A stretch of 64,000 nucleotides of DNA from Paracyclopina nana (taxonomy: Eukaryota > Arthropoda > Copepoda > Cyclopoida > Cyclopettidae): the NCBI GenBank assembly GCA_019096065.1, contig JAGUCH010000002.1, positions 3,856,501 through 3,920,500 of the forward strand, read 5' to 3'. The notes under the pieces were generated by a model. It was not told the origin of the DNA. It worked only from the letters and a program-made list of their open reading frames with translations, and made no database searches. Numbering within the stretch: the stretch's first letter is position 1; each line of letters opens with the position of its first letter. Shown piece by piece: positions 1,266 through 54,187 of this stretch. A program made the translations under genes and the position numbers.

Positions 1266-1861
1266 TTAAAGGGCCCTGGTCCACATGTCATCATCCTTCT
1301 TCTTCAACGACCTCATCCACATTTCATCCCCGCTCCGCTTCACCATCCTGCCAAAGGATTTGCTCCTGTAAAAAATGCCTTTCACTTATGAAGCTTGCGT
1401 TGAAAAATTGGATTTACCTCAAGGCTCTCATGAACATGTCGCTGCCACTTCTCAGTGCTCGTGTGTACATGTCATCATCGTACGATCTGAGTGCTCGCAT
1501 CCACATATCATCGGGGGCTCTAGACCGAAAAATGCCTGAATGTGCACTGATTTTCCTGAAAGTTCAACTTACCTCAGGGCTCTCATGAACATGTCACTGG
1601 GTGACCTCAGTGACCTGGTCCACATTTCGGAATCTGGGGACCTTAAAGCCCTTAAAAACATGTCGTCTGCTGAGCGAACCATGCGATTGTAGCCAGCGTT
1701 TTGCGTTTCCTCTGGAAAACATTGTTTGCTATTCCTAGCTATTCCCCTTATTATATTTTCAATTGGAAGAAAAGAGTACCTGATTCAGAAGTTGGAGCCC
1801 CAGTGCAGAACGGCATGACTATTGCTACCAAAAATATGGAAGTTTTGAAAATGGAATTCAT
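1266..1861 (-). CDS. multicopy peptide (neuropeptide-like) precursor, 140 aa, eight repeats
   Basis: Four minus-strand exons: 1861-1780, 1711-1573, 1519-1418, 1365-1266. Introns are 68, 53 and 52 bp, all GT-AG, and the frame closes exactly. Residues 1 to about 21 are a signal peptide (MNSIFKTSIFLVAIVMPFCTG). After a short spacer come eight copies of a 9-11-residue motif: SADDMFLRAL (41), SPDSEMWTRSL (52), SPSDMFMRAL (64), APDDMWMRAL (75), SYDDDMYTRAL (86), SGSDMFMRAL (98), SGDEMWMRSL (119), DDDMWTRAL (132-140). Consensus: acidic-M-[F/W/Y]-[L/M/T]-R-[A/S]-L. Copies are separated by a single Arg or by KKK (129-131). The last copy ends at Leu140, directly before the stop, so the mature peptides probably end in free Leu after Arg removal. 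No Gly amidation donors are present. The layout matches orcokinin-like multicopy precursors, but I do not recognise the motif. Confidence 0.8.
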
Positions 1862-4167: not shown

Positions 4168-4665
4168 ATGATGTCAAGTGGAAGTAAGAAAATCATGAAA
4201 AAACTGGTGCTAAGGAGAAATCACGAATTTCAAGATTGGGGATTCGAGCTCACAGGAGGATGGGAGCAAGGCCAATGGATCGGTAAGAATAAAAAAAATT
4301 AGTACTAGTATAATTATACTAGTATGTATTTCAAACTTTTGATATAAATTGTAGAAGTGATGTCAGTGAACCAGTTGAGCCCAGCTCACAAAGCTGGCCT
4401 TTTGCCTGGCGACTTTCTGGTGAAATGTCACGATGAATTAGCCCTTTTTAAATCCCACCATGATATTGAAGAAATGCTGAGGCGGATCAAAACCCTGGAA
4501 ATGGAGGTGGAAATCGAGCGTGGTCAAATTGCACCCATGACTCTGATGGAAAGCTCCAAAGAGCCTGCCAAATCTACTGATGACTTGTGCAGAAATGAGG
4601 ATGAAATATTCACCATAATTCTAGACAAGCAAAGAGGCATTTATCATTGGACCAAGAAGAGCTAA
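4168..4665 (+). CDS. single PDZ-domain protein, 141 aa
   Basis: Two exons, 4168-4282 and 4355-4665, joined across a 72-bp intron (phase 1). The carboxylate-binding loop is seen as WGFEL with TGG (about residues 20-27). The AHKAGLLPGDFLV segment (about 49-61) is the hallmark second half of a PDZ fold, which binds C-terminal or internal peptide motifs of partners. The pattern WGFxLxGG resembles the PDZ of PDZ-LIM proteins (Zasp/PDLIM), but no LIM domain or second PDZ follows. The tail after about residue 100 is short and charged. An acceptor-like sequence ending at 4157 just before the paired ATGs suggests an upstream 5' UTR exon. It may be a short adaptor or one isoform of a larger gene. Confidence 0.75.
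4303..4324. repeat. 22-bp perfect palindrome inside the PDZ-gene intron
   Basis: Two TACTAGTATAA half-sites face each other without a spacer. The element takes up nearly a third of a 72-bp intron. Confidence 0.7.
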
Positions 4666-12149: not shown

Positions 12150-13972
12150 ATGTCAGTTAAATCAATCGGAAAAGGCAATTCACCCATTTACAATTTAGAT
12201 GGTTCAAATTGGTCGTTTTCCCAGAAAAAAGAGTGGAGTCAGGCCACAAGAAGCAATTCAGAAATTCCAAGTAAAGTCACCGGTAATGACAATTCAGAGT
12301 ATGTAGTTTACCCCGAAAGATGGTGGCTGTTGACCACGGTGGTTTTCCTTAATTTGGCAAATTACTCTCATTGGGTGTCATTTGCAAGTGTGTCAAAAAT
12401 TGCAGCCACTCATTACAACCAATCCGGAGAAATGATGGATCTCATTCCTACAGTATCCTATGGTTGTGGCGTGCCTTTTACACTCATTGCCACATACGTT
12501 GTTGAACGCTACGGTCTTAAAATTGGCCTACATGTTGGCGGCTTTTTAACAGGAATTGGTGTGTTTTTAACATCGTTTTAATCAAAAGTTCTGATGTACC
12601 AATTTTTGACAGGAGGACTTGCTTGCTGTCTCAGCACCTTTCCATATCTTTCGGAATACTTTTCCTCCAGCACAAAGTTCTTCATGGCCTTGGTTGGTCA
12701 AGCCTTGACAGGGACTGCATGTCCATTTATTTCTTGTGTCCCAACTAAGATTAGTCAGAATTGGTTCAGCTCAGAGCAAAGAACCTTAGCAACCATTTTA
12801 CTTGGGATGAGCAATGCAGTTGGCACATGCATGGGACAAATGTTCACACCCCTGTTTGTCCAAGAGCCAAGTCAGGTTCCTCTCATGAACATAGTCTGGT
12901 TTATTCCAGCAGCTCTAGGAGCCTTTTTGACATTTTGGAAGGTGATACAAGCTTTGCAGCTAATGCTGATGTAAAGGATACATCATTCAATTCAATTCTA
13001 GGTAACTTCTGATATTCCTCCAACACCTCCATCAGCCTCAGCTGACCATGCTAAGCCAACATCAGACTTTTCTCTAGCAAACTATTTCCACAGCATTAAG
13101 TTACTGCTGACCAATTGGTCATATGTCATTTTGGTCATGTTTGTCGGAGGAGCTATGGGATACCTCAACACCATTTCAACCAAGATTGAGCAAATATTTT
13201 GCTCCAAAGGCTACTCAAATCAACTAGCTGGAATTACTGGTTCTTTTATCCTTTTAATTGGATCGTTGTCATCCTTTATTTTTGGCCTTTTGGCATACAA
13301 GACAAAAAAGCCTATTTTGGTATCCAAATTAAGTGGTATGATTTCCATACCATCTATTATCATGATGGGGTACTTCATGAGGTATGAAAACCAAAGTCCT
13401 GCAATTATTGCCTCATGCATGCTTTTTGGAATGTTCACCATTGGTCCATACCCATTGATTCTGGAACTCATTGTAGAATGCACCTATCCAGTGGATCAGG
13501 TATAAAGCTTATCATAACACTGATGTATAATACTTGATCATTGCCTACTCAGGCAATTGGTACTGCTCTCATATTTTTGTCAAGTGCACTTCAAGGAGTG
13601 TTACTCATGACTGTCGAGAACTTTATGGTGACTGGGGTTCTCTTGGACAATGACTCAGTGTCAAACAGAACATGCATTGAAATAGAAGCAACCAATCTTG
13701 AACCACCAGTAACCCAAGACTATTCTAATTATTTGAACTTCATTACTGGCTATGTTGTAGCTTTGTCCCTGCTGTTTATGATTTTCTTTAAAACTGAACT
13801 GAAAAGAAGCAAAGCTGATGAAAACTCATCAATCCTGCAGGACCAAACTAACAACCAACGTCAGTTACCCGAGAAAATCTACTACATGTTTGATGATATT
13901 GACTGCCAATGCTTCATGTCAGGCCACTTTATGATGGGATCGGAATCTGGCACACTACTAAAAAGAAAATAA
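12150..13972 (+). CDS. SLC49-type major facilitator transporter, copy 1, 551 aa
   Basis: Exons 12150-12558, 12613-12941, 13002-13499, 13553-13972, with introns of 54, 60 and 53 bp. A hydrophilic N-terminal region of about 50 residues precedes YPERWWLL and about 12 membrane segments. The VERYGLKIGLH loop matches the MFS D/E-R-x-G signature between TM2 and TM3. The central VPTKISQNWF.SEQR..AT..LGMSN stretch (split here) is diagnostic of the SLC49 family (FLVCR, MFSD7/SLC49A3, DIRC2/SLC49A4) and is closest in look to SLC49A3. Family members move small organic solutes such as choline, heme or pyridoxine; the substrate cannot be read from sequence. The C-terminal tail is short and cytosolic. The TAA stop lies inside an AATAAA (13968-13973), so the 3' UTR may be only about 20 nt. 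Confidence 0.88.
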
Positions 13973-16819: not shown

Positions 16820-18652
16820 ATGTCAAAGAACAACATTACCTCAGATAACGAAGGAATCAGACCTTTTAATGTGGAGAAACAGCTTAACTGTACAAAGCTG
16901 CTAGTCAAAGACAAGCTTTTGTCCAAGATAGCTTTCAAGCCTGCTCAAGAAAACCAAGACCCTGTTGAGGTTGAAATGGCCACTGTGGAGGACCCTAAAG
17001 ATCTATACAGAGTGTACCCTCAAAGGTGGTGGATTCTGGCCACTGTGGTCTTGCTGAATCTGGCGAACTATTCACATTGGGTGGCCTTCCCAAGTGTGGC
17101 AAAAACTGCTGCCAAGCACTATGATCAGCCTGGAGACAGAATGGATCTCATACCCACTGTGTCATATGGATTAGGAGTGCCTTGCTGCCTTCTCGCAACT
17201 TATATTGTAGAACGTTATGGCCTCAGGACTGGATTACATATTGGTGGCCTCTTCACTGGCATTGGTAATCAATTGAAGAAAAATCCATTGACTTCATTTA
17301 TATATTAAATGGTTTCAGGTGGCCTCCTATGTTGCCTTAGCACCCTACCTCACCTCAGTGATGGTTTGACATCTGATACAAAGTTTTACTTGGCCCTAGT
17401 TGGTCAAGCCCTGACTGGAATTGCATGTCCATTTATTTCTTGTGTTCCAACAAAGATAAGCCAACACTGGTTCAGCGATGAGCAAAGAGCCTTGGCTACT
17501 ATTTTGCTTGGGATGAGCAACCCAATTGGAATTGTCATGGGCCAAATGCTGACACCAATGTTTGTCAGAGAGGAAGCCGATGTGCCACTTTTGAACATCA
17601 TCTGGTTTATTCCAGCTGGCCTTGGATCCATCTTGACAATTTGGAAGGTGAAATCACAAACTTCCCTGAGTTTGATCAATTACTCAAATTAATTCATTTT
17701 TTTAAGGTAACTGCTAATGTTCCTCCAAAGCCACCATCTCCCTCAGCTGCAATTGCTAGGCAACATAGAGCAACATCTGGGTATGAGTACTGGCCAAACA
17801 TTAAGAAGCTAGCCACCAATTGGCCATTTATTATTCTGTTCATGTTTGTGGGTGGAGCAATGGGTTATGTCAGCACCATTTCTACCAAGATTGAGCAAAT
17901 CTTGTGCTCAAAAGGTTATTCAGACCAACTTGCAGGAGTATCTGGGGCACTTATTCTTCTGATGGGATTCATTTTTTCATTTCCTTTTGGAATCTTGGCT
18001 TACAAAACTAAGAAGCCAGTTTTAATGTGCAAGATCTCTGGTTTTGTTGTCATCACAGCGCTGATCATGATGGGATATTTCATGCGAGTGCCTGACCAAG
18101 GTGGTGCAATTATTGCCTCAGCAGTGTTACTTGGAATATTTGCTCTTGGGCCCTATCCAATTGCATTGGAGCTCATTGTGGAATGTACCTATCCAGTAGA
18201 TCAAGTAAATAGTACATCAACCCTTCCTATCTACCTCTTGTTAATTATGCTGTTTGCAGGCAATTGGTACAGCATTCATTTTTCTCTCCAGCGCTTTACA
18301 AGGAGTTCTCTTGATGGAAGTTGAGAACCATATTGGCCAGCCTCTCAGTGATGAGGATATGCTTATTCAAAAATGTGTTGCTCAAGGAGACACAGGTCAC
18401 CAACAACCAAAAGATTATTCAGCCTACTTGAATTTCATCACCGTTTACATGGTCCTCCTTAGTTTACTCTTTATGATTTTCTTCAAAACTGACATGAAGA
18501 GAACAATGGCAGATGAAGACTCTAAAGAGAAGACAAAAATGGCTAAGACAAAAATGGCTGGCGTCAACAGCCACGACATTGAACAGACTGCTTCTGCAAG
18601 CAACCCAGAAGAAAGTGAGACTTTATTTTCTGCTGCTGAGTCAGCTCCTTGA
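16820..18652 (+). CDS. SLC49-type major facilitator transporter, copy 2, 554 aa
   Basis: Exons 16820-17264, 17319-17647, 17707-18204, 18260-18652 (introns 54, 59 and 55 bp). Exons 2 and 3 are the same lengths as in copy 1 (329 and 498 nt) and all three intron positions match, so this is a tandem duplicate. It has about 12 membrane segments, the VERYGLRTGLH MFS signature, and the family block VPTKISQHWFSDEQR with GMSN. Divergence from copy 1 is greatest in the N-terminal 60 residues and the C-terminal tail. Here the tail has KTKMAKTKMA and an acidic Ser/Glu-rich end. The ATG at 16820 is preferred over an in-frame TTG. AATAAA at 18909-18914 and 18915-18920 would end the 3' UTR near the stop of the opposing gene. 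Confidence 0.88.
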
Positions 18653-53068: not shown

Positions 53069-54187
53069 TTAACCCTTGATAGGTATGATTCGCCCCCATG
53101 TTTGACATGCCTGATGACATTGACTAGAAAGAGTTTCACGAATTTTGCCGACTTGTATCGGATTTTTTGTAATTGGCCAAGGTGGTGCACTTCGATGAGC
53201 GATTGGCCAAGGTGGTGCGCTTCGATGAGGCCAATTTGCAATTGACCTCGGGATTGTCTGCCCACTTTTAGCTTTAGCTTGTTGGGCTTTCATGACCATT
53301 TTTGTTGCCCGTGTTTTGACTGCTACATGGGCTTTCTTTGCGGCCTCATTTTCGAGTTTTCCGAGAAGATCATTGCTACCCATTTCCGTTTTGGGTGCTG
53401 GAGTAAGCTCCAATTTTCGTTTTGATGGGATTTTGAGTGCCATTTGCGCATCGTTCCAGTCGCCCGTTTGAGCGCTGGTTGAGGGCTTTGATAGAGCTGT
53501 GCTTTCAGCTTGTGATGGTGAAAGCCAATTCAAAGTTGATCTCGTCTGCCCACTTTCAGCTTTTGCTTGTTGGGCTTTTAAGACGATTGACGCGTCTGTG
53601 TCATCCAGCATCTTTTTTCTTGACAAGTTCAAGTCTGGATTTGGATCACTTTCGAGCTCGTCTGAGCGTAGAATTTCTCGTTTTTCGAGTAAGTTTTGGC
53701 GTGTATGCACGCTTGTTTTTGTTTTGGAAAGGCTTAAGTCCTCTGGGAAAGGCATGACGTCCGAGGACTCGTTGGCCGATATTTTTGATGCCTCAGGATT
53801 TTCCCTTTCGAATTCGGCTAGATATCTGCGGAATCGCGCAAACCAGCCTCTTTTGCGAATGAGGATCATTTCCATTTTTTCCCTCAAGATGATTAAAGCC
53901 TTGTCTCTGGCCTCGCCATCTTCGGCATCGATGAAGTCTGTGTCTTCCTCGAAAGCTTCAACTTCCTTGTCGAGGTGTGAGATCTTTGGCCTGAGCTCCT
54001 TGAGCTTTCTCTTGTAAGGCTTGATGTCTTGTTTCATGACATCTGGCATGATTTGATGCCATGCATCATAATGATCCTGGATGACTTTCATGCCAGCTTC
54101 AATCTCTTTGAGCACCACTCTCCAATGCCTTTGGCTATTGTCCTCGTCAGAGTGGTTTGGAGAGCTCGTATTCATTGCGCTAGCCAT
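53069..54187 (-). CDS. retrotransposon gag-like protein, 372 aa
   Basis: The one long intact frame of the element, starting MASAMNTSS, is placed after the LTR and leader as gag should be. The N-terminal half is helical and charged. The C-terminal third has a duplicated KAQQAKA.SGQT motif and repeated HRSAPPWPI units, pointing to small tandem duplications. I see no CCHC zinc knuckle, so the nucleocapsid part is missing or lost. It would coat the element RNA if expressed. Confidence 0.65.
   Translation of the reverse strand: MASAMNTSSPNHSDEDNSQRHWRVVLKEIEAGMKVIQDHYDAWHQIMPDVMKQDIKPYKRKLKELRPKISHLDKEVEAFEEDTDFIDAEDGEARDKALIILREKMEMILIRKRGWFARFRRYLAEFERENPEASKISANESSDVMPFPEDLSLSKTKTSVHTRQNLLEKREILRSDELESDPNPDLNLSRKKMLDDTDASIVLKAQQAKAESGQTRSTLNWLSPSQAESTALSKPSTSAQTGDWNDAQMALKIPSKRKLELTPAPKTEMGSNDLLGKLENEAAKKAHVAVKTRATKMVMKAQQAKAKSGQTIPRSIANWPHRSAPPWPIAHRSAPPWPITKNPIQVGKIRETLSSQCHQACQTWGRIIPIKG

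Follow-up and report, generated by a model that had tools for sequence, protein, structure and literature searches.

Few animals are as abundant as copepods. The described peptides closest to those of the copepod gene considered here are the FMRFamide-like peptides (FaLPs), such as the extended FLRFamides of crustaceans, with which it shares a multi-copy precursor, a hydrophobic-[M/L]-R core, and cleavage at basic residues. The FaLPs include GHTIMRFa of Latrodectus and DDFLRF of Tigriopus, and FIRF, FLRF, and FVRF peptides are given for copepods, in the part of a review that was available (PMC12035899). Unlike the FaLPs, the peptides predicted at this locus carry no C-terminal Phe and no amidation Gly, and their precursor has no match to the Pfam family FARP. 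Myosuppressin (..HVFLRFamide) is a single-copy, amidated peptide whose His and FLR recur in an HFLRSL-type paralogue of our gene, whereas the peptides considered here are multi-copy and predicted to be non-amidated. Orcokinins and allatostatin C are non-amidated arthropod neuropeptides with which the free-acid C-terminus is shared, but their sequence motifs differ from RxL. Two further families, DXXRLamide and FXGGXamide, were named from Tigriopus, according to the accessible part of the source (PMC4696782). The former is likewise a copepod family with Arg and Leu near the C-terminus; however, judged by its name only, it is amidated with Arg and Leu adjacent, whereas the present peptides have R-x-L with a Leu that is never followed by Gly. 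The name DXXRLamide reportedly goes back to Christie 2014, on Tigriopus californicus.

Among the matches listed, no description of RxL peptides was found in the literature searched, a scope outside which the Christie 2014 copepod peptidome lies. The strings HFLRSL, FMRALR, MFMRAL, HFLRAL, FSRILR, SFSRIL, TFSRIL, FMRMVR, and MWMRSL had no occurrence in the literature text searched, and FLRSLA and DMFMR occur, in the portions of text accessible, only in papers with unrelated titles. The gene is a real, conserved multi-copy precursor of a copepod peptide family that is apparently unnamed, as no name for it was found in the literature searched.

The gene lies on the minus strand of the window, i.e., the whole stretch of 64,000 nucleotides from Paracyclopina nana that was analyzed. 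Four exons join into a 423-bp coding sequence for a precursor of 140 residues, in a gene model derived from the sequence with the following features (hydropathy was also used for exon 1):

1861-1859, minus strand: start codon ATG
1780..1861, minus strand: exon 1, with the predicted signal peptide (MNSIFKTSIFLVAIVMPFCTG), the start of the propeptide, and a phase-1 donor
1712..1779, minus strand: intron 1, 68 bp, GT...CAG, phase 1
1573..1711, minus strand: exon 2, with the spacer unit NAGYNRMV and repeats 1-3 (SADDMFLRAL, SPDSEMWTRSL, SPSDMFMRAL)
1520..1572, minus strand: intron 2, 53 bp, phase 2, lying within the Arg codon after repeat 3
1418..1519, minus strand: exon 3, with repeats 4-6 (APDDMWMRAL, SYDDDMYTRAL, SGSDMFMRAL)
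1366..1417, minus strand: intron 3, 52 bp, phase 2, lying within the Arg codon after repeat 6
1266..1365, minus strand: exon 4, with the spacer unit SKSFGRMV-KR, repeats 7-8 (SGDEMWMRSL-KKK-DDDMWTRAL), and the stop
1268-1266, minus strand: stop codon TAA, directly after Leu

The intron lengths of 68, 53, and 52 bp had been proposed in a sequence-only reading of the locus, and its coordinates for the gene, 1266..1861, proved exact. All three introns are GT-AG, and the splice pattern is supported by these sites together with homologue alignments that span every junction, although the first only weakly. The predicted exon-1 junction follows the splice consensus and the homologous layout, the N-terminal part aligning weakly. 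That no exon is conspicuous as an open reading frame agrees with a longest single-exon frame of 71 aa for the gene. Residues 1-21 of the precursor form a hydrophobic stretch with a hydropathy peak of 2.85 over 11 residues, which, by hydropathy and by eye, points to the N-terminal signal peptide expected of a multi-copy neuropeptide precursor. A phase-1 intron after the signal peptide is common to this gene and its paralogue L007 (intron 1; by eye).

Behind the putative signal peptide, the eight acidic-M-aromatic-x-R-[A/S]-L repeats claimed in that reading were confirmed, as units that fit [DE]-M-[FWY]-x-R-[AS]-L. The separators are likewise as described, with R after units 1-6 and KKK after unit 7, and unit 8 does end at Leu right before the stop. 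The predicted peptides have 9-11 residues, the lengths given before; as free acids, their calculated monoisotopic MH+ values are 1138.556 (SADDMFLRAL), 1308.589 (SPDSEMWTRSL), 1154.533 (SPSDMFMRAL), 1205.544 (APDDMWMRAL), 1349.568 (SYDDDMYTRAL), 1114.502 (SGSDMFMRAL), 1211.518 (SGDEMWMRSL), and 1122.488 (DDDMWTRAL). Two degenerate [YF]-x-R-M-V-(K)R units had been overlooked, namely YNRMV-R ahead of unit 1 and SKSFGRMV-KR between units 6 and 7.

The units diverge in DNA yet are constrained to a single protein motif. By Nei-Gojobori counting, the eight 7-codon cores (28 pairs, pooled) give a pN/pS of 0.22 in the coding frame, compared with 1.32 and 1.08 in the two shifted frames and 1.22 in antisense, and the mean pairwise difference is 0.57 at third positions versus 0.24 at first and 0.17 at second positions. 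The gene would thereby combine repeated units at basic cleavage sites with conservation at the protein level, as expected of a peptide precursor. Tandem Repeats Finder reported no tandem-repeat array at the gene at its default score, and Rfam gave no structured-RNA match at gathering thresholds over the whole window.

Including the splice donor, the ends of exons 2 and 3 share 29/31 nt, with a score of 52 where 300 shuffles reached 25 at best, and their third units match at 20 of 21 nt. Their first and second units match at 11/21 and 14/21 nt, respectively, which does not exceed the agreement between other pairs of units. The comparison therefore supports duplication of the third unit together with its splice donor, but not a whole-exon, in-register duplication from exon 2 to exon 3. 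Unit lengths of 10-11-10 recur in both exons, with Thr in the middle unit, and introns 2 and 3 are both in phase 2, each splitting an Arg codon after R-A-L. Exon 4 scores 30 against exon 3 and 25 against exon 2, with best shuffles of 23 each.

The sequence-only reading had suggested a search of relatives for the motif, and homologues indeed support a multi-copy peptide precursor. Of the 465 candidates from a protein search with the joined precursor, 51 proteins had E values of 1 or less, 40 of them below 1e-3 (best, E = 9.6e-20). Each of the 51 carries two or more units of this kind, and no precomputed Pfam domain lies on any of them. The four best matches, P0001-P0004, which bear the source tag merc (which we take to be a marine eukaryote transcript catalogue), align at 45-47% identity over 94-99% of the query and pass through the sites of all three introns, weakly at the first. 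At the C-terminus, the final MWTRAL of the window protein corresponds to a final MWMRAL in P0003 and P0004; P0002 continues for two residues past its last RAL, and the end of P0001 diverges. The only hit with an organism name in this search is TCAL_04013 (P0021) of Tigriopus californicus, a hypothetical protein with HFLRSL-type units that ends in HFLRTL.

A second search, with the main exon of the FSRIL-type paralogue L006, gave 4423 candidates and 80 proteins at E up to 1, all with at least two units; this FSRIL set includes LOC131877555 of Tigriopus and A0A0K2TXG1 of Lepeophtheirus salmonis, both uncharacterized. Over both family searches, organism-named homologues thus comprise only two uncharacterized Tigriopus californicus proteins and one Lepeophtheirus salmonis protein, which make a copepod the most likely source of the window. 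A genome of 92 Mb, as found here, would suit a copepod with a small genome. With six proteins added by a further search, 137 proteins (P0001-P0137) were retrieved, of which the first 51 and the six form an MRAL/HFLRSL set of 57. The aromatic or hydrophobic position ahead of RxL is strongly biased (R and L being fixed by the search pattern), and the N-terminal residues vary; acidic linkers separate the units in relatives, and an RMV unit is present in 14/137 proteins. A Pfam scan of ten family members gave nothing above the curated cut-off except FARP on P0133. As a working definition, we use the term copepod FxRxL family for precursors with multiple copies of aromatic-x-R-x-L followed by R/K or the stop and never by Gly, which is the composition of the window protein. 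Of the retrieved proteins, 54/137 start with MG, often ahead of a second Met that opens a signal-peptide-like stretch; this initial MG is possibly, we presume, a template-switch cDNA adaptor end read as coding.

The window gene does not stand alone, as its genome holds at least two paralogous precursors besides it, found with the window protein at E 4.5e-4 and 6.7e-4:

L007, G000:C2:13.97 Mb: HFLRSL-type precursor with units FLRSL, FMRAL, FLRAL, LQRIL, FNRGL, and FMRMV
L006, C5:5.06 Mb: FSRIL-type precursor with twelve units, FSRIL, FDRIL, or FSRFL

Both have basic-flanked repeats and, by eye, signal peptides. L007 bridges the other two, as it holds window-type FMRAL, L006-type LQRIL, and an RMV unit. 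The RMV unit immediately precedes the last core unit in L007 and the second-last one in the window gene. In a six-frame genome search without introns, in which short exons can escape, hybrid, FSRIL, and HFLRSL queries matched known genes only, and no fourth paralogue was found. Most units of the three genes contain R-x-L-R, the letters of the RxLR motif of oomycetes, to which the PEXEL RxL of malaria parasites is similar; this likeness is presumably convergence on a basic-residue cleavage site.

The C-terminus of the mature peptides can be read from the family as a whole. Units were counted with the pattern [FWYLM]-x-R-[ASI]-L, which requires no following residue and gives about 1000 units in the 137 proteins (1001 in a recount without trailing capture). 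After 1000 units, the next position is R in 799 and K in 129 (R/K, 928), the stop in 71, Y in 1, and G in 0. Since Gly never follows Leu, the peptides should be free acids, as the sequence-only reading had predicted for the window gene. Proteins that end exactly at RxL number 65/80 in the FSRIL set, 8/51 in the first set, and 0/6 among those added, i.e., 43/51 and 6/6 of the latter two groups end otherwise; in the many proteins that stop right at RxL, the stop therefore marks the mature C-terminus. The domain PF03712, of the amidating-type monooxygenases, has 19 matches in the window genome, not all of which need be the peptide-amidating enzyme.

In the proposed mechanism, the signal peptide would direct the precursor to the regulated secretory pathway and then be removed. 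Prohormone convertases would cleave on the C-terminal side of the Arg or Lys next to each R-x-L, as well as at KR and KKK, with monobasic cleavage predicted and R-[AS]-L-R serving as a minimal RxxR site, and a carboxypeptidase would trim the basic residue. With no Gly after Leu, no amidation would occur, and the peptides would end in -R-[A/S]-L-COOH, a single precursor thereby releasing eight similar 9-11-mers. Their most likely role would be neuromodulation, with all eight serving as one ligand set for a GPCR that probably belongs to the FMRFamide-receptor-like group. The proposed processing steps draw on the sequence and on established knowledge of prohormones; release, receptor, and effect are inferred. 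Overall, we consider it very likely that the locus is a copepod neuropeptide precursor gene giving eight free-acid peptides, which probably act via an FMRFamide-receptor-like GPCR.

The window gene would then belong to a multi-gene neuropeptide family of copepods with members in Tigriopus and the salmon louse, and its precursor provides precisely defined candidate ligands for orphan receptors. A lead is offered by Oithona nana, for which the accessible part of the report (PMC8301441) gives 17 neuropeptide/hormone receptor genes as raised in males and labels seven of these as FMRFamide receptors.

The alternative that survives best concerns the origin of the family and is compatible with the neuropeptide reading. 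It holds that the family descends from an FMRFamide-type gene in which Phe-Gly of FMRF-G-R-S was replaced by Ala/Ser/Ile-Leu, turning the products into free acids. Amidatable RFGR units and M-x-x-R-[AS]-L units share one precursor in 29/57 proteins of the MRAL/HFLRSL set, as in the stretch HIMRFGRS-VMDQNDMFMRALRS, and two proteins with a like N-terminus, P0133 and P0136, carry RFGR units only. The two kinds of unit align without gaps, x-[I/F]-M-R-F-G-R-S against x-M-F-M-R-A-L-R-S, with the common form hydrophobic-x-R-XX-R-S. Such hybrid precursors suggest a link between the FxRxL family and the FMRFamides at the level of motifs, a similarity that would also fit RFamide units being later gains or fusions. 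By source tag, 27/29 of the hybrids are merc, P0005 is lgn, and P0032 is ena (an 855-base contig); as they are close variants from few organisms, 29 is no count of independent events. RFGR occurs in 0/17 HFLRSL-type proteins and in 1/80 of the FSRIL set (P0103, one RFGR), which counts against such a descent. The RFGR cassette is present in some precursors and absent from others with the same flanks, which may reflect alternative splicing or copy-number change, or, for single entries, repeat misassembly.

Domain profiles and the rest of the genome bear on the same question. P0133 just exceeds the FARP (PF01581) cut-off, a marginal match of 15.8 bits against 15.5 (E 0.018), but neither the window protein nor the hybrid P0027 matches FARP even at E up to 10. 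The positive control was a canonical FLRFamide precursor of the same genome, which scores 21.1 bits at the same cut-off:

C1, L015 1258-1680: a single open frame encoding a canonical FLRFamide precursor, with the units NFLRFG, SFLRFG, and DNFLRFG and, as the last, DFLRFG

This last unit runs straight into the stop, much as the window gene closes with RxL and the stop. Since this separate canonical gene exists, which weighs against descent, the window gene is an addition and not a replacement. FMRFamide-like genes are defined by units in which a C-terminal R-F precedes either G-[K/R] or a terminal G; the window protein lacks this feature, and the window gene is therefore not classed as an FMRFamide gene. 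The FLRFamide probes also match L013/L014, a repeat-rich frame of another kind. On balance, we regard descent from an FMRFamide-type gene as a plausible origin, at somewhat below even chances. A more tentative proposal, to which we give slightly less credence, is that the three-gene, free-acid FxRxL family of copepods arose from FMRFamide genes, with the hybrids as surviving intermediates and the peptides using duplicated FMRFamide-type receptors; if true, it would be a case in which a neuropeptide family gave up C-terminal amidation and acquired a different pharmacophore. The precursors that hold both RFamide and RxL units allow testing how a peptide family changes or loses an amidated pharmacophore.

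The layout of a signal peptide with multiple copies is shared by some antimicrobial, venom, and gland precursors, and the products might accordingly be secreted for a role other than that of neuropeptides. We consider this unlikely, as the predicted peptides are short, linear, and N-terminally acidic, neither cationic nor cysteine-rich, and acidic linkers lie between the units of relatives.

Marginally less probable still is that bioactivity resides in the linkers or in the variable, acidic N-terminal half, with R-x-L-R as a mere protease tag. Such a tag would fit the generic furin/convertase motif RxxR and the basic residue found after 928/1000 units. However, RxL stands at the extreme C-terminus without a basic residue in the 65/80 and 8/51 proteins noted above, so that the motif is kept where a cleavage-site role is impossible, and it is the aromatic or hydrophobic position that is strongly biased, with the N-terminal residues free to vary.

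Every exon alone is short, as chance open frames or a decaying repeat would be, but pN/pS of 0.22 against 1.1-1.3 in control frames and a best homologue at E 9.6e-20 refute that reading.

Elsewhere in the window, of the domain matches in the scanned frames, the one closest to the peptide gene is a weak PDZ_6 match at 4348-4665 (plus strand; 20.1 versus a curated 27 bits). A 30-bp tandem repeat (53172-53229; 1.9 copies, 96% match) lies within a 379-aa minus-strand frame that has no Pfam match at 1e-3. Two adjacent, hydrophobic, transporter-like frames at 13002-13505 and 17482-18324 (plus strand) likewise gave no Pfam match at 1e-3; they are 63% identical over 154 aa, and on this comparison the pair represents a putative local gene duplication.
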